Virus record (IMG/VR): IMGVR_UViG_3300020183_000131
Coordinates: 1 to 48,127 of that record
DNA: 48,127 bases
Direction: 5' to 3' (one strand)
Origin: a virus
The notes beneath the pieces were generated by a model, which searched no databases, was not told the origin of the DNA, and saw nothing but the letters and a program-made list of their open reading frames with translations. Shown here one piece after another: positions 2,926 through 39,905 of this stretch. A program made the translations under genes and the position numbers. The stretch's first letter is position 1, and each line of letters opens with the position of its first letter.

Positions 2926-3453
2926 ATGGCAAAACTTCCTTTTATCGTTGAGCCCAAATCAAAGCCCGTCTTAACAAAAATCGGGAATGATGAAATTGGT
3001 ATTTTCGAAATCGAAAGACGAGGATACTTGACCGTCTCGGAGAAGACTTTTGTTGATAGCTTTACTCAGTCTAGTGGGATCTTGAAGGATATTGTAAAAA
3101 TTTCGAATCAAGTATCCTTGTTAATGAAAATGGGTCGCGACGAGGCCTATAATCTTGTTGTTAGAGTTTTAAGTGGAAACACTGAGACCAAGAACGAGAA
3201 AGCTGTAGCAGAAAGATATGAAGTCGAAATTGCTGAGATGACATCCAATATGGCTGAGATGCAATCAAAGAGGGCACTTGCTGTAGCAACCGTATTATTA
3301 CAGAGTCGAGTTGATTCGGAATGGGAATTTCAAGATACTTTAGGTTTAGAACCTCAGATAGTAGAGGAGCTTTGTTCGTTGTACGATTTGGAAGAGTCTA
3401 AGATCAAACCGGAGCAACCCGAGACCCTGGCACAAGAAATACTGGGAAAGTAG
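2926..3453 (+). CDS. tail assembly chaperone, short (gpG-like) form
   Basis: This 175-residue, largely helical, charged protein lies just upstream of the tail-tube and tape-measure genes. It ends in ...EILGK with the codons CTG GGA AAG TAG, so the last sense codons form the heptamer G GGA AAG, identical to the phage lambda G/GT slippery sequence. In lambda-type phages the short form and a -1 frameshifted long form together coat the tape measure during tail assembly. I infer the same here from the slippery site, the gene position and the open -1 frame. Confidence 0.8.
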   Translation: MAKLPFIVEPKSKPVLTKIGNDEIGIFEIERRGYLTVSEKTFVDSFTQSSGILKDIVKISNQVSLLMKMGRDEAYNLVVRVLSGNTETKNEKAVAERYEVEIAEMTSNMAEMQSKRALAVATVLLQSRVDSEWEFQDTLGLEPQIVEELCSLYDLEESKIKPEQPETLAQEILGK

Positions 3454-4082
3454 AATCAGGTGAATACGGAGAGCCAATTAATTTCTCTGAAATCTATTGG
3501 TTTTTGAAATTCACCTTCCCAGGCGATACGGAGTTTACATTTGAGAGATACGGGGAATTACCATATATCTATGTCTTAGAGGCATATGAAAATGGATTGA
3601 GAATAAATAGAAAAAATCTTCATTACTATGAAGCGCCACACGCTCTTCAGACATCTATACTTGCCAATATTAATAGAGATCCTAAAAAGAATCGCAAACC
3701 CTTTTCTTTTGAGGATTTCTGTATGTATTTATCTTTAGAGGATAGAGATATTCCAAGTTCTGAATTCGGATCAGCGGCAATGGTGTTGATCGAAAAAAGA
3801 ATCTTTCCATCATGGGCTTTATTTGCATACAAAGATCTTAAGAGTGCAGCCTCTGGGCTGCCGCCAGATGTCCTTGCTTATTTGTCAGATGATATTATTA
3901 TTTTGGCTCCACAGATTTCCGAAGGTTCTGTTAAAGGTATGATGATAGCAATGCAAAAAGCATCTGGAAAATTAAGATATCTGGAATCACCCTGTCATAA
4001 ACAAGTAATCATTAAAGTACCAAAGTTTGACGGTAAATTTTATTGTTGTGAAAATGTAGTGATTGAATTAATTACTGGTTAG
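2926..4082 (+). CDS. tail assembly chaperone, frameshifted (gpGT-like) fusion
   Basis: This is the -1 frameshift product of the chaperone gene: 175 residues of the short form, then about 210 residues from the downstream frame (VESGEYGEPINFSEIYWFLK onwards, entered at 3450). The downstream part has no good independent start: only a TTG at 3504 with no ribosome site. This supports translation only as a fusion of about 385 residues. Its 3' end overlaps, tail to tail, the antisense HNH gene by 11 bases. The tube gene lies between the chaperones and the tape measure, unlike the usual tube-chaperone-tape order. Confidence 0.8.
3444..3450 (+). promoter_or_regulatory. -1 programmed frameshift site GGGAAAG
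   Basis: The heptamer G GGA AAG is in the correct phase (X XXY YYZ) and is followed at once by the zero-frame stop TAG (3451-3453). The -1 frame entered at GTA 3450 is open for 210 codons to 4082. Lambda uses the same heptamer between G and T. No obvious stimulatory stem-loop was needed to make this call. Confidence 0.85.
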
Positions 4083-4449
4083 AATTGTATTGAAGAATTT
4101 TTCCTGTATTAAGCCATTCATCAATCCTTTCTTCATTAATCAAGGAATAAAAATTTTGCAGTCTATACCAAGACCTCCAATCCAAGCTACCTTTTGAATG
4201 GTTGCATGATTTGCATGCGGGAACACAATTACTTGTTCGATCTTTACCTCCTCGGCTTTTAGGTCTAACGTGATCAACAGTTAAACTTTTCTCATCAATT
4301 GGAGGGCTGTTGCAATAAGCGCATCTGTTGTTCCATGCCTCTTTAATACTATTACGCCACAATCGTTTGGCTTCTGTTGTTGTCATTGCCTCAAGATTAA
4401 AAAGGTATTCGAAAGCCTTCTCTCGAAGGGGAATAATCTGATTAATCAT
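4072..4449 (-). CDS. HNH endonuclease, likely free-standing homing type
   Basis: This 125-residue protein carries a clear HNH nuclease core: CAYC, then LTVDHVRPKSRGG, then NCVPACKSCNHSKG. This gives the two zinc-binding CxxC pairs and the catalytic His. It is the only minus-strand gene inside the tail block and sits between the frameshifted chaperone and the next tail gene, the typical pattern of an invading homing endonuclease. An inverted repeat at 4464-4521 lies just outside its 5' end. Its likely role is cleavage of related genomes lacking the insertion; a packaging role is less likely given the position. Confidence 0.85.
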   Translation of the reverse strand: MINQIIPLREKAFEYLFNLEAMTTTEAKRLWRNSIKEAWNNRCAYCNSPPIDEKSLTVDHVRPKSRGGKDRTSNCVPACKSCNHSKGSLDWRSWYRLQNFYSLINEERIDEWLNTGKILQYNSNQ

Positions 4450-4463
4450 TGAGCTATTGTTTG

Positions 4464-4521
4464 GACAACCACTAAGGGAGTGTAAGCAAGTGGGCTTTTC
4501 ATAAGCGCTTTAGCGGTTGTC
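4464..4521. repeat. inverted repeat with internal hairpins
   Basis: GACAACC (4464-4470) and GGTTGTC (4515-4521) are perfect inverted repeats flanking 44 bases. The interior can form CACT-AAGGG-AGTG (4470-4482) and GCTT-TTCAT-AAGC (4494-4506). The result looks like a small branched structure in the 124-base gap between the HNH gene and the next tail gene. It could be an RNA leader for 4574, a terminator region or part of the mobile HNH unit. It is too short for a tRNA. Confidence 0.45.
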
Positions 4522-4573
4522 TAATATATGTTTCCGGCAAATGGCACACTAAAACGCGGATTTATACTCATTA

Positions 4574-26827: not shown

Positions 26828-27214
26828 TTAACCACGACTTGAATTTATTCTAGCATCTGCATCGTTAATCATGCCGTGAATATAGGATTGGATTCTGGAT
26901 TCTTTCCAATCATGATCATTAAAAAGGATATTTGCAATTATATTTAGATCGTTTTCATGATCTTGATTCCATTCGCCTTGAATGACGGCATCTTCAACAA
27001 CTAGATTAATTTGAGATAGAACATTTAATTCAGTGATTTCTTCTTGCTGTTCTATAATAGATGTCGCATGATTTATTCTGTTTTTATCTAACATCTTAAG
27101 AATAAGGAAACCTGTTTCCGAGTTAACAAAAATAAGCCAATCGGCTAATGCTTGTATAGCAGAAGTAATCAGATTACTTGAGGATGCAACCAATGTAAAT
27201 AGATAGCCTTTCAT
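26828..27214 (-). CDS. hypothetical protein in replication operon
   Basis: This 128-residue helical protein begins MKGYLFTLVASSSNLITSAIQ. A hydrophobic N-terminal half (LADWLIFVNSETGFLILKML) is followed by an acidic C-terminal half (EQQEEITELNVLSQINLVVEDAV). Its ATG lies one base after the helicase stop. It might be a helicase partner by position (for example a loader), but no AAA+ or loader motif is present, so that remains speculation. Confidence 0.5.
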   Translation of the reverse strand: MKGYLFTLVASSSNLITSAIQALADWLIFVNSETGFLILKMLDKNRINHATSIIEQQEEITELNVLSQINLVVEDAVIQGEWNQDHENDLNIIANILFNDHDWKESRIQSYIHGMINDADARINSSRG

Positions 27215-29940: not shown

Positions 29941-30181
29941 CGTGTTTTGACCTGACAGAACATAGGGACGGTGTCAACCCCTGCCGCTCACAGCATATGG
30001 ATTTTCATCGGGGGTTACCTGAGGAAAGGTTGCTTCAGGGAAGGTTTGGGGTTGTCTTAGGCAACCTTTGGGGGTGGTCTCAGGAAACCCAAGGGGGGTT
30101 GTCTTAGGCAACCCCATCCTTAGATATATATATACTAGATTAAAAAAGATTAAGAAGACTCTTATCATCATCATTAGTCTT
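29941..30181. other. candidate phage replication origin
   Basis: This 240-base gene-free gap lies between divergent operons (initiator-helicase leftward, recombination genes rightward). It holds five 17-bp iterons (30013-30113) followed by an AT-rich tract with alternating TA (about 30121-30150), which could serve as the DNA-unwinding element. The arrangement iterons plus AT-rich DNA beside an initiator gene is the classical theta-origin layout (compare the lambda ori next to gene O). It must also contain the promoters of both operons. Confidence 0.65.
30013..30113 (+). repeat. five 17-bp iterons, consensus GGTTGTCTTAGGNAACC
   Basis: Units start at 30013, 30028, 30050, 30073 and 30097. The third and fifth are identical (GGTTGTCTTAGGCAACC); the others are GGTTACCTGAGGAAAGG, GGTTGCTTCAGGGAAGG and GGTGGTCTCAGGAAACC. 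Each is itself an imperfect palindrome (GGTTG...CAACC). Spacing is about 15-24 bases and three of the intervals are near two helical turns, as expected for sites bound cooperatively by an initiator dimer. Confidence 0.8.
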
Positions 30182-30583
30182 ATGCGCGAACCGGAAGAAA
30201 AAGTCCCCAAAAGCAGGCTTCTGTACAAAACCGAGGAGGCGTGGCTGAATGCCCAGGAGAGCAAGCGCCGCTACTGCCGGAGGTACCATGAGCAGCACCG
30301 GAAGGAGCTCTACGAGAAGAACAGGCGCCGCAAAGCTGCCAAGGCTGCTGTGGCACGACGGAAGAGGCAGCGGATCAAAAATCGATTCGATGCGGTCAAC
30401 GAGGAGTTCGGCAAGGTAGTAATCCGACTGAACTTCGAGCTTTTGATGAGCCAGACAGCGATCTTCGACCTACTGGGTGGGCTGATCTCATCTCAGGACA
30501 TTGCAAAGATTTGCAAACGCGAGCAACAAAGACTCCATAGACTGCGGGAAGCAAAAGCCAAACGCAATGCAAAACGCCATTGA
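30182..30583 (+). CDS. basic helical protein, possible DNA-binding
   Basis: This 133-residue, highly basic protein begins MREPEEKVPKSRLLYKTEEAW. It has a long Arg/Lys-rich helix (KSRRYCRRYHEQHRKEL-like region at about residues 27-65), a short hydrophobic middle (FELLMSQTAIFDLLGGLISS) and another basic helix at the end. The frame is open upstream through the iterons, but the ATG at 30182 just after the AT-rich tract is the sensible start. First gene of the rightward operon; it overlaps the annealing-protein gene by 17 bases. Function unknown. Confidence 0.6.
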   Translation: MREPEEKVPKSRLLYKTEEAWLNAQESKRRYCRRYHEQHRKELYEKNRRRKAAKAAVARRKRQRIKNRFDAVNEEFGKVVIRLNFELLMSQTAIFDLLGGLISSQDIAKICKREQQRLHRLREAKAKRNAKRH

Positions 30584-31247
30584 GATCCCAAACTTGAGCG
30601 GGATTGCCACCAAGGACCTTGTTGAGCAGATTGGGTCTGGCAGCTTCAAGGCCAGTTACATCAACTGGTCTCGCACCATGAACCTCCTTAGAATGCACGC
30701 CCCAGGTTGGATGTGCGAAACGGTGTTTTCCACAGATGGTGGCCTGGTTCATCAGGCACCAGTTGGCGGTTACCTTCTGATCCGCTATCGCCACGTTTCC
30801 GGATTCACCACGCCCGAGGTTCCGCAGGCGATCATGGACCATCGGAATAATTCGATACCTTTTGAGAAGATCACTTCTCGAGACGTGACAGACACGCAGC
30901 GCAGGGGTGCTTGCCTGGTTGCCGCTATGCAATTCGGACTGGCATATGAATTATGGGCAAAGATGCCCCTGGAAAGCGGGTATGCCGTAGAGGAGTCGCG
31001 AGAGGTCCCTGTAAGCCCCTCCAAGGCCCCTGCGAACGATGTCTCGCCTAAACGCTCGACCAAGAAGAAACAGACCTCTGAGGCCGATTTCCGCGAGCTG
31101 GCGGCAGAGAAGGGGCTTTGCACTGAAGCCATCGATGCTCTCGTCGCCCGAATTGCTGGAAAATTTGACATCGGCGTTGACACCCTTAAATCAAAGGACG
31201 AGTCTTGGGTTGAGACTGAAAACTCTAAATTTCAAGAAACGTATTGA
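30567..31247 (+). CDS. single-strand annealing protein, DUF1071/Sak3-like
   Basis: This is a 226-residue protein. Residues ~32-140 show the DUF1071/Sak3 annealing-protein pattern: INWSRTMNLLRMHAPGW, GGYLLIRYRHVSG, then MDHRNNSIPFEKITSRDVTDTQRRGACLVAAMQFGLAYELWAKMPLE. This compares with 'MD..n..i....it..din...mR.lvkaiA.hGLGly.w'. The rest is a Lys/Ser/Pro-rich linker and a small helical end (FRELAAEKGLCTEAIDALVARIAG). An SSB, a RecE/Cas4-like exonuclease and RusA lie downstream, which together make a plausible Red-like recombination set. Confidence 0.65.
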   Translation: MQNAIEIPNLSGIATKDLVEQIGSGSFKASYINWSRTMNLLRMHAPGWMCETVFSTDGGLVHQAPVGGYLLIRYRHVSGFTTPEVPQAIMDHRNNSIPFEKITSRDVTDTQRRGACLVAAMQFGLAYELWAKMPLESGYAVEESREVPVSPSKAPANDVSPKRSTKKKQTSEADFRELAAEKGLCTEAIDALVARIAGKFDIGVDTLKSKDESWVETENSKFQETY

Positions 31248-31335: not shown

Positions 31336-31348
31336 CTTTGCATATCAT
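31321..31348 (+). promoter_or_regulatory. candidate sigma-70 promoter for sigma gene
   Basis: TTGACG (31321-31326) and TATCAT (31343-31348) are separated by 16 bases and lie just before the sigma-factor ATG at 31371. The -35 falls inside the loop of the preceding terminator. If used, the start site would be near 31355 with a very short leader. Confidence 0.4.
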
Positions 31349-31370
31349 TGTTTCGTTGAATGAAAACAGT

Positions 31371-32159
31371 ATGTCTTCGAGCGATGACAGTTTGCTCTTT
31401 TGGCTCAATAATGCCGGACGGTTTCATGTGTTATCGCAAAATGAAGTCATTAGGCTCTCCCGAGATATTCATGAGCACGGCGAAGATTCGCGTAAAGGTC
31501 AAAGAGCAATAAAAAAACTTGTCAATCATAATTTAAAATTGATCCCGATCATCACAAAAAGAATACTCGCACCAAGAAAGCTGTTTAAATTTGGAGATTC
31601 TCATACAATTGATCTTTTGCAGGCTGGTGTATTTGGTCTGTATCGTGCTGCAGTGCTTTATGACTATCGTCGTGGTTACAGGTTTAGTACTTATGCCCAT
31701 GGATGGATATATCAAAACGTTCAAAGACATCTCTATAGTCTGACATCACTCATCTACGTGCCAGAACAGTACCATAGAGATCAAAAATATTTAACGGATA
31801 TTAAATACATGACTGAAAAGCGCGAGCAACGCCCTCAGTACTACGAACGTTCACTAATGGCGCAAAACGCTCTCAGTCCTGCCTTGTCGCTTTACGCAAG
31901 AATTTCCGAAGACGAAGAAATCGAAAGACACGACCTGGCTTTACAGACCAATAAACTCGAGCCGATTGACTCTATTGAAGATATTTTCAATCTTTCTGAA
32001 CTAGAAATTGATCCTGTTCATAAAGACATCGTCGTTCAGGTTTGTTGTTATAATGCCCGGATCATTGATCTTGCTAATAAATATCAGATGAATAGACATG
32101 AAATAAGGACAATTATGAATTCTACGCTTGGCAAGCTCAAAACTGCAATGAGCACATAG
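31371..32159 (+). CDS. RNA polymerase sigma-70 family factor 1
   Basis: This sigma factor of about 262 residues would redirect host RNA polymerase. Region 2 is clear: VNHNLKLIPIITKR, then DLLQAGVFGLYRAAVLYDYRRGYRFSTYAHGWIYQNVQRHL (about residues 80-121), with the core-binding DLLQAG and the -10 reading FSTYA..WI. The C-terminal ~35 residues (ARIIDLANKYQMNRHEIRTIMNSTLGKL) form a region-4-like helix-turn-helix for -35 recognition. I choose the ATG at 31371 over an upstream TTG at 31338. A second, different sigma gene lies at 37674. Confidence 0.85.
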   Translation: MSSSDDSLLFWLNNAGRFHVLSQNEVIRLSRDIHEHGEDSRKGQRAIKKLVNHNLKLIPIITKRILAPRKLFKFGDSHTIDLLQAGVFGLYRAAVLYDYRRGYRFSTYAHGWIYQNVQRHLYSLTSLIYVPEQYHRDQKYLTDIKYMTEKREQRPQYYERSLMAQNALSPALSLYARISEDEEIERHDLALQTNKLEPIDSIEDIFNLSELEIDPVHKDIVVQVCCYNARIIDLANKYQMNRHEIRTIMNSTLGKLKTAMST

Positions 32160-32189
32160 ACTGAAGTGTACATCACAGGGACCCCACCC

Positions 32190-32540
32190 ATGGCACAGAC
32201 AATGGTTTCCGGCACGGTTGTATGCAAGCAAGGCGAACCCGCCGCAACTCTCCGTGAACTTAATAGCGGCACTAAGAGCCTTGAGTTCAGTGTTCGAGAC
32301 ACTGAGTACTTTTACTTTAAGGGCGATTCCAAGCCCGGCCAGTTCTACAAAGTACAGGTGATCGGCAAGCAAGCTGAAATTCTAGCTGAGCGCATTGAAC
32401 GCGGTGATTTTATTGTCGCAAATGGCCAACAGGTTATGCGTGAATACAATGGGCGCACTTATGTCGACATCAAAGATGCGCGTGTAAACATGCCTTACAA
32501 AGCAAAAGATGAGACTGATGTAGCTTCTTCAATGTTTTGA
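32190..32540 (+). CDS. ssb: single-stranded DNA-binding protein (OB fold)
   Basis: This is a 116-residue protein beginning MAQTMVSGTVVCKQGEPAATLRELNSGTKSLEFSVRD. The beta pattern of an OB fold follows: YFKGDSKPGQFYKVQVIGKQAEILAERIERGDFIVANGQQVMREY and RTYVDIKDARVNM, as in bacterial and phage SSBs (GD-V-G). The short acidic end (DETDVASSMF) fits the usual partner-binding tip. The ATG at 32190 is preferred over a GTG at 32166. It sits amid recombination genes. Confidence 0.8.
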   Translation: MAQTMVSGTVVCKQGEPAATLRELNSGTKSLEFSVRDTEYFYFKGDSKPGQFYKVQVIGKQAEILAERIERGDFIVANGQQVMREYNGRTYVDIKDARVNMPYKAKDETDVASSMF

Positions 32541-37673: not shown

Positions 37674-38288
37674 ATGAAAATGGCTCGCAAAACCAGAAAA
37701 TTTTACTTAAATGAAGAACAGCAGAGATTAGCGTCTGAAAACATTAATCTGGCTAGAAGAGAAGCTTGGCGGCTGCAAAGAACTGCCGATATTGATTATG
37801 ACACACTTGAAGGTGCTGCTTTAGAAGGGCTCTGTAAGGCGGCTTATCGCTACAATCCTGAATCTGGATTCAAGTTCAGTAGTCTTGCCGTTCCAACGAT
37901 TAGGGGCGAATTACTTCATTGGATTAGGGACCGGACGTATGCAGTGAGACTAACCCATAAGATGCGAGACAATTGGTTGCGTGGTCGTAAAATGCTTTAC
38001 GAAGGCATGTCTGAAGCCGCTATTTGCGAGAAGCTGGATCTCGAATCAAGCGAATGGCAAGAGATTATTAGCGTTTGTAGTGGACCACCACTTGAAATCA
38101 ATGATCAGGCAAGTCCATCAGCAAGTCTTGAACCCGATGAAGTTGATTTTGCATCTCAGTACTTGAATGAAATAGAAACAAAAATTAACAAAATGAGTCC
38201 AGGCGAAGTCTCATTGCTTTCAAATTATTTCAAGGGTTCGAATTCCAGATCTGGTGTTGCGCTGATCAATTCTTTATGGCAGGATTGA
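37674..38288 (+). CDS. RNA polymerase sigma factor 2 (SigB/F/G-like)
   Basis: This 204-residue sigma factor has region 2 as INLARREAWRLQ, then DYDTLEGAALEGLCKAAYRYNPESGFKFSSLAVPTIRGELLHWIRDRTYAVRL (about residues 42-92). 'AVP.IRGE.l..iR' with a following region-3-like helix resembles SigB/SigF/SigG-type group 3 factors rather than the main sigma. The second half (RGRKMLYEGMSEAAICEKLDLESSEWQEI) could read promoter DNA. Region 4 is weak. It is located right after terminase and before primase; it is a candidate reader of the GGAAYAMTA late motif. A second ATG at 37680 is possible. Confidence 0.8.
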   Translation: MKMARKTRKFYLNEEQQRLASENINLARREAWRLQRTADIDYDTLEGAALEGLCKAAYRYNPESGFKFSSLAVPTIRGELLHWIRDRTYAVRLTHKMRDNWLRGRKMLYEGMSEAAICEKLDLESSEWQEIISVCSGPPLEINDQASPSASLEPDEVDFASQYLNEIETKINKMSPGEVSLLSNYFKGSNSRSGVALINSLWQD

Positions 38289-38312: not shown

Positions 38313-39905
38313 TTGGGGATCTCATCTAAGACTATTGATCAAATAAAAGCCCTGCCAATCTCCCATGTACTGGAAGCAGAGGGCGTCCCCATGAAGCGCG
38401 TGGGGCGAGAATTTATATGTCAGTGTGTCTGGCATGATGACACCAATCCATCTCTGACGATTTCAGATCAGAAAGGATTTCTGTTTTGTCATGTTTGTAG
38501 GAATTCGGGAGATGCAATCAATTATATCAAAGAAAAGTTTGGTCTTAGCTTCCGCGAAGCTGTTGAGAGAATTGCAGAAAAATCTAATATACAAGTTCTT
38601 TATGTTGACGAAAACTCAGAGGAGCTACAAGCGCGTCGAAGGGAAATCGAAATCGCATATGAACAAGTCGAATCAACACAAAGACTTTTCAGGGAAAACT
38701 TGCGCCTCGATCAAAAGGTGAAAGACTTTATTAAATCAAGAAATATTGAACCAGCGACAAGCAGGGAATTCGGACTTGGCTTTAACAAAAGTAGAAATCG
38801 TTTAACTATACCCATTCAAAGTTCAAGTGGGAAAATTATTGGATTTACCCAAAGAGCAATAGGCAATGACAAGCCAAAATACATTAACACAGAAAATAAT
38901 ATAATCTTCAATAAATCGAATATTGTTTTCAATGAATTCCGTGCGCTAGAAAGTATTCGCGAGGCAGGAGAGTGCGTCTTCGTCGAAGGACATATTGATG
39001 TTATTGCGTTGCATCAATACGGAATCAAAAACGTGGTAGCCCTGCAAGGTACGGCATCGCCGGATATAGCAGTAATTAAGCGGTTGATGAAACGAACCAC
39101 AAGATTTGTACTTTGCATGGACGGAGACGAAGGCGGGAGGCGAGCAATTGGCAAATTTCTTGCCGCGATAGAGCAATACGCATTGTCTGGCAAGCTTGAT
39201 GTTCGTATTGCAAGCCTCCCAAATGGCAAGGATCCCGATGATTGCATTAAAGAAGGAGTTGACATGAGATCCTTGATTGCAGGCTCCCTAAGTTGGCTCG
39301 ATTGGATACTGGATAGCTGGCTTTCAAGTCTTGATTTTAATGATTCCGTGGTCATTAATGACGTTGAAAAGCGAATCAAAAATTTATTCTCTAAGATATC
39401 TAGCCAATCATTGCGGACTTATTACATTGACAAGGCTGCATTGAGGCTTGCACAAAATAAAGAAAATCTTGCCACTCAAATCGCCAAAGATTTACATGAA
39501 TCGGTAAAGTATTATCGTCTAACAAAAAGCTGGACCAAGCCTGGATTGCTTGACACAAGAAAACTGGTAGAAAAAAGATTAATTCGTTTGTATATTCATA
39601 AGCCACACATAAGGACTGTCTTGGCTCCATTAATGGATTTACTTTACTTCCCTGAAATGAAATGGCTGTGGAATCGGATAAAGGAGGTAGAGAGTGTAGA
39701 TGAAACTTATTCTATTCCAGATGTATTGATGGCAATGCTTCTTGTAGCAGAACCGCAGTATCTTCAACAATTACGTCCGATCATTGTGCCAACTATAAAT
39801 ATTGATTCGTCGCCGGGGGTCATACACCATATTGAAGACATAATGGTGTCACCAATCGAGGATGATACGCTTTCTGCCCCAAAGAATATGGAAGACTCCC
39901 TGTAG
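38313..39905 (+). CDS. dnaG: DNA primase, DnaG-type
   Basis: This 530-residue primase has a CHC2 zinc finger (Cys38, His41, Cys59, Cys62 in CVWHDD...FCHVC) and a DnaG core with FGLGFNKSRNRLTIPI and PKYINTENN. A TOPRIM domain has ECVFVEGHIDVIAL (Glu225) and FVLCMDGDEGGRRA (Asp270, Asp272), then GKDPDDCIKEG. The C-terminal ~180 residues are helical and could bind the helicase. The start is a TTG at 38313 with AAGG 7 bases upstream; no earlier in-frame start exists because of stops. Works with the helicase encoded at 28982-27216. Confidence 0.9.
   Translation: MGISSKTIDQIKALPISHVLEAEGVPMKRVGREFICQCVWHDDTNPSLTISDQKGFLFCHVCRNSGDAINYIKEKFGLSFREAVERIAEKSNIQVLYVDENSEELQARRREIEIAYEQVESTQRLFRENLRLDQKVKDFIKSRNIEPATSREFGLGFNKSRNRLTIPIQSSSGKIIGFTQRAIGNDKPKYINTENNIIFNKSNIVFNEFRALESIREAGECVFVEGHIDVIALHQYGIKNVVALQGTASPDIAVIKRLMKRTTRFVLCMDGDEGGRRAIGKFLAAIEQYALSGKLDVRIASLPNGKDPDDCIKEGVDMRSLIAGSLSWLDWILDSWLSSLDFNDSVVINDVEKRIKNLFSKISSQSLRTYYIDKAALRLAQNKENLATQIAKDLHESVKYYRLTKSWTKPGLLDTRKLVEKRLIRLYIHKPHIRTVLAPLMDLLYFPEMKWLWNRIKEVESVDETYSIPDVLMAMLLVAEPQYLQQLRPIIVPTINIDSSPGVIHHIEDIMVSPIEDDTLSAPKNMEDSL

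Follow-up and report, generated by a model that had tools for sequence, protein, structure and literature searches.

The closest described counterparts of the locus studied here are initiator-bound replication origins of phages and of a phage satellite. In phage lambda, the origin consists of 4–6 iterons bound by the initiator, with an AT-rich tract adjoining, and it is served by the winged helix-turn-helix (wHTH) O-type initiator and a helicase-loading step (PMC7466680). In PLE, of the Vibrio cholerae/ICP1 system, the iterons are semi-palindromic and intergenic and the initiator is of the RepA_N type; the DNA-binding domain of that initiator co-varies with the origin, the two forming a module that can be swapped, whereas the remainder of the protein is conserved (PMC8263062). 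A third point of reference is the replisome organizers of the Firmicute DnaD-DnaB/SPP1 type, which combine an N-terminal wHTH with a helical C-domain that hands over to the replicative helicase. To our knowledge, no replication origin has been mapped by experiment in the Synechococcus siphoviruses S-CRES1, S-CRES2, S-CRES3, and S-CBS2, and a literature search on cyanophages and iterons found none.

We analyzed a 48,127-nucleotide stretch of DNA (IMG/VR virus record IMGVR_UViG_3300020183_000131; hereafter, the window) in which a cluster of repeats lies beside replication genes. The cluster resembles lambda ori in being a regular group of partly palindromic repeats with an adjoining AT tract and a neighboring wHTH initiator. 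Unlike the lambda array, which lies inside the initiator gene, this array is upstream of the gene in a divergent gap, so it would work like the lambda origin but without the lambdoid layout. It also differs from lambda in that a DnaB-type helicase and a primase are both phage-encoded, and in that the iteron sequence varies by lineage while the spacing is constant. With PLE the locus shares intergenic semi-palindromic iterons and a modular co-variation of the initiator DNA-binding domain with them; however, PLE is a satellite with a RepA_N initiator and three ~30-bp iterons, whereas here a different wHTH family, sites of 15–17 bp, and a whole phage family are involved. The domain plan is that of the Firmicute proteins, but there was no significant fold-level match to them (E 0.4), and both the host group and the origin sequences are unrelated.

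Repeat Array and AT-Rich Tract in the Window

An earlier note on this DNA, made from its letters, had described five 17-bp repeats, two of them identical, and this was borne out. Five copies occupy 30013–30113, at start-to-start spacings of 15, 22, 23, and 24 bp, and the array starts ~75 bp upstream of the initiator gene start (Table 1). Copies 3 and 5 are identical, near-perfect palindromes; because copies 1, 2, and 4 are degenerate, the description of every copy as a GGTTG...CAACC palindrome is valid for those two only. The motif is unique in the window: allowing up to 3 mismatches, matches to GGTTGTCTTAGGCAACC were confined to the array. The chance expectation was 0.05 matches per shuffled window, and five matches were reached in none of 100 shuffles. 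The palindromic-family score of the gap was 9, compared to 7 for the next-best 200-bp stretch of the window and a maximum of 7 among 30 dinucleotide shuffles.

The AT-rich tract that had been noted after the repeats was also confirmed: no other 50-mer of the window is as unstable as the one it holds. This tract probably serves as a DNA unwinding element, and it may in addition act as the -10 region of the rightward promoter. A promoter scan returned one weak site.

Table 1. Positions of the repeats, the AT-rich tract and neighboring genes in the window.
Feature	Position	Strand	Remarks
HNH endonuclease	4072–4449	-	Among tail genes; same relative place as S-CRES1 gp74
Third gene of leftward operon	26828–27214	-	Occupies the place of the S-CRES1 RNase III-like gene; no Pfam match
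DnaB-type replicative helicase, 610 aa	27216–29048	-	Pfam DnaB_C, E = 9e-19
Initiator (predicted), 321 aa	28972–29937	-	AlphaFold2 model, family matches, co-variation with array
Iteron 1	30013–30029	+	GGTTACCTGAGGAAAGG; degenerate, in register with other copies in alignment
Iteron 2	30028–30044	+	GGTTGCTTCAGGGAAGG; degenerate, 15 bp from iteron 1
Iteron 3	30050–30066	+	GGTTGTCTTAGGCAACC; palindrome GTTGTC-N3-GGCAAC
Iteron 4	30073–30089	+	GGTGGTCTCAGGAAACC; degenerate
Iteron 5	30097–30113	+	Same letters as iteron 3
AT-rich tract	30119–30169	.	TTAGATATATATATACTAG...; ~45 bp, directly past the array
First rightward gene, small basic protein, 133 aa	30182–30583	+	
Sak-type single-strand annealing protein	30570–31247	+	Pfam SSAP_Sak
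SSB	32166–32540	+	Pfam SSB
DnaG-type primase	38313–39905	+	Pfam

At window 30113–30249, two contigs from one metagenome (L003 and L034), which are 99.8% identical to the window, break inside the array or AT tract. One of them begins exactly at the last repeat base, and the AT tract of L034 has one additional TA.

Gene Neighborhood and Relatives

A megablast search of phage records with the region found no near relative at the nucleotide level. Protein searches grouped the window with S-CRES1/2/3 and S-CBS2, to which its helicase is 45–50% and its Sak protein 44–57% identical. In those phages the leftward genes are an RNase III-like gene, the DnaB helicase, and a “DNA replication protein”, and past the gap the rightward genes are one or more small genes, Sak, a sigma factor, and SSB. 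Phage PSS2, also considered for comparison, has a more distant helicase and a different gene order, and no array was found near its helicase.

That the array sits beside a wHTH initiator-like gene and a helicase was upheld by the DnaB_C match and by the wHTH in the AlphaFold2 model. The earlier note was mistaken in calling this the only divergent gap, because the minus-strand HNH gene creates a second one at 4450–4573. No DNA polymerase was found among the window ORFs scanned, and the replicase is therefore likely the host polymerase. Two sigma-70-like genes (31338–32159 and 37674–38288) are present in this one phage. No end repeats were found at the ends of the record, which may be less than the whole genome.

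Arrays Across the Family

Loci were gathered by helicase and Sak alignment scans of viral contigs and by one scan of bacterial-genome contigs. The comparison set comprised 47 non-redundant loci, all carrying this helicase/initiator module and drawn from S-CRES1, S-CRES3, S-CBS2, and uncultivated phages. In nearly all of them the same gap carries 3–8 palindromes of 14–18 bp each. By an automatic test the array scored above all 30 dinucleotide shuffles in 29 of the 47 loci, and in 28 no other 200-bp stretch of the locus scored as high. Repeats were discernible by eye in ~12 of the 18 loci that fell below this test, while no clear array could be made out by eye in L061, L071, and L114. The last of these (contig DGOV01000074.1) carries the same module in a MAG labeled Proteobacteria UBA4457, and is probably a phage contig binned with that MAG.

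The sequence of the array differs between lineages and its geometry is constant. The repeat is GTGGACAAGGTGTCCAC in S-CRES1, TACCCAACCGTTGGGTA in S-CRES3, TGCCCAGCCAGTGGGCA in S-CBS2, AGGATGATTCGTCCT in L038, and GTTGCATTTTGCAAC in L012. Among 113 spacings, 64 were 21–24 bp and 31 were 14–17 bp, and the 15-22-22-23 pattern of the window type recurs with unrelated sequence in L014, L028, L038, and L077. The earlier note had raised the prospect of relatives that keep the replication genes and lack the repeats; instead, array position and geometry are kept across the family. Sak homologues in phages without the helicase/initiator module were accompanied by no comparable palindromic array.

Across the family, the AT tract flanks the array on the side that does not face the initiator gene. 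Mean AT content was 0.5 within the array, 0.80 at +10 to +20 bp past it, and 0.5 again by 50 bp, and in 27 of the 29 loci scored, the one-sided unstable tract ranked within the 0.4% of 50-mers with the lowest stability. A TATATA element is conserved at a near-constant, short distance past the last repeat. L039 and L041 have good palindrome arrays with no unstable AT-rich tract after them, and their opening site may be elsewhere.

Two loci (L015 and L025) were observed to have 14-bp spacing instead of 22, with abutting half-sites and a different packing geometry. Among the Sak homologues without the module, L088/L090 and L097 were rejected as palindromic arrays, their high scores being due to low-complexity tandem repeats.

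The Initiator Protein

The AlphaFold2 model of the initiator (pLDDT 87, pTM 0.47) has a winged HTH at residues ~24–100, a long helix at 102–135, a flexible linker, and a helical C-terminal domain. As modeled, the long helix appears suited to dimerization. The window protein itself had no family match in Pfam or the PHROG profiles. Among 42 members of the initiator family, 10 matched Pfam HTH_36, 15 matched the PHROG “DnaD-like helicase loader” (best 1.3e-9), and 9 matched the PHROG “replication initiation O-like” (best 1.3e-4, the window protein not being one of these); no RepA_N match was among the Pfam families listed for the 42. A structure search against the PDB gave no significant match, its weak returns being Geobacillus primosome DnaB (whole-length, E 0.4) and regulators of the MarR/GntR type. 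Against viral models the best match was a 359-aa protein, probably the homologue encoded by S-CBS2, followed by phage HTH and RepA-like initiators.

In S-CRES3 gp3 (L005) the reading frame extends to an ATG at 3224, which restores the N-terminal HTH; the annotated start at 3107 is probably too far downstream.

Co-Variation of Array and Initiator

The best correlate of array similarity was the identity of the initiator N-terminal domain (Spearman 0.46). A partial Mantel test that controlled for the helicase, Sak, and the C-domain of the initiator gave r 0.33, and r 0.38 when only automatically found arrays were used (p = 0.001). The first run had included 12 arrays chosen by eye; a rerun without these and without close pairs left the result unchanged. 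Neither Sak nor the rightward gene added array signal once the initiator N-domain and helicase were controlled. The initiator column that co-varied most was residue 78, which falls within the predicted recognition helix.

The pair L044 and L045 shows such a change occurring naturally. Their helicase and downstream-gene products are 99–100% identical and the AT-tract sequence is common to both, yet the array copies change from TTTCATTTTGAGACC to TTCCATTTTGGAACC and the recognition helix of the initiator from KLGCGSTARRRSLQVL to KLHCGPSARRRSLQIL. A comparable switch distinguishes L077 from L026 and L033. We tentatively suggest, as one possible account, that specificity switches jointly in the DNA-binding domain of the initiator and in most or all iterons, within an origin of fixed geometry. 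If so, cyanophages would carry many mutually orthogonal initiator/origin pairs, and the switching could be driven by rivals, satellites, or defenses that target the origin, as known for PLE/ICP1. The initiator/iteron pairs of this family offer a natural series in which to study DNA recognition by a wHTH and shifts in origin specificity.

Proposed Origin Function and Alternative Explanations

We consider it likely, from comparison of sequences, that 30013–30169 is an iteron-type, initiator-bound replication origin of the phage. This agrees with the proposal of the earlier note, and is supported by an array that is kept in place, co-varies with the wHTH, and is absent where the initiator/helicase module is absent. 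Taken across the family, position, spacing, and co-variation with the initiator convert what one genome could only suggest into an origin that is specific and testable, in a phage group widespread in aquatic habitats. A dimer of the initiator would bind each 15–17-bp palindrome through its N-terminal winged HTH, and the bound initiators would stack over the repeats. The resulting nucleoprotein complex would strain the AT-rich tract to the right of the array and open it. The C-terminal part of the initiator would then recruit and load the phage DnaB-type helicase encoded in the same operon, and the phage DnaG-type primase and SSB, probably with the host replicase, would complete the fork. We infer a theta mode of replication. 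The cumulative GC-skew minimum that had been expected at the repeats lies elsewhere, and neither the window nor S-CRES1 has a turning point at the array.

Because the array lies between divergent promoters, initiator binding probably also represses or times both operons. This position and the constant TATATA element make it likely that the array has an additional, autoregulatory role over the leftward initiator-helicase and rightward recombination operons. The main rival to the origin reading takes this role as the only one: the array would be purely an operator, at which wHTH dimers regulate the divergent operons, and replication would start elsewhere. wHTH proteins are often regulators, the structure search did return weak MarR/GntR-type matches, and a TATATA at a fixed place past the last repeat would suit a promoter -10 element with an operator in the space between the operons. 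However, the co-variation points to an O-like/DnaD-like protein, operonic with the helicase, as the binding partner; the copies number 3–7, compared to 1–2; and the adjoining unstable region, at ~40 bp, is longer than a -10 element. On this evidence we regard a function as operator only as unlikely.

It is very improbable that the partner of the repeats is instead the small basic protein encoded by the first rightward gene, acting as an early regulator. Its gene adjoins the array and the proteins of the window clade end in an HTH-like stretch, but there was no convincing HTH family match, the correlation with the array was r 0.04–0.06 (p 0.2–0.3) once the initiator N-domain was controlled, and the L044/L045 array switched though the small basic protein is 99% identical. 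We give equally little credence to the palindromes being RNA or single-stranded DNA hairpins (a leader structure or single-strand initiation site) rather than protein sites: the single strand does fold more stably than shuffles (z -4.7), but good folding is expected of any palindrome array and the score does not discriminate; moreover, the spacing clusters near two helix turns as expected for a duplex-bound protein, the sequence switches follow the DNA-binding domain, and the single Rfam match was a chance miRNA, with no Rfam family found.

Other Inverted Repeats Near the Gap

A small hairpin, distinct in position from the array, is conserved between the AT tract and the first plus-strand gene in L077, L026, and L033. 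Its sequence is CCTTTAC-TTC-GTAAAGG, and the L033 version, CCATTAC-TTC-GTAATGG, represents a compensatory change; judged from these sequences, the hairpin is a possible leader RNA structure. Similar inverted repeats, AATTCCATAAATGGAATT, were observed in L042–L045.
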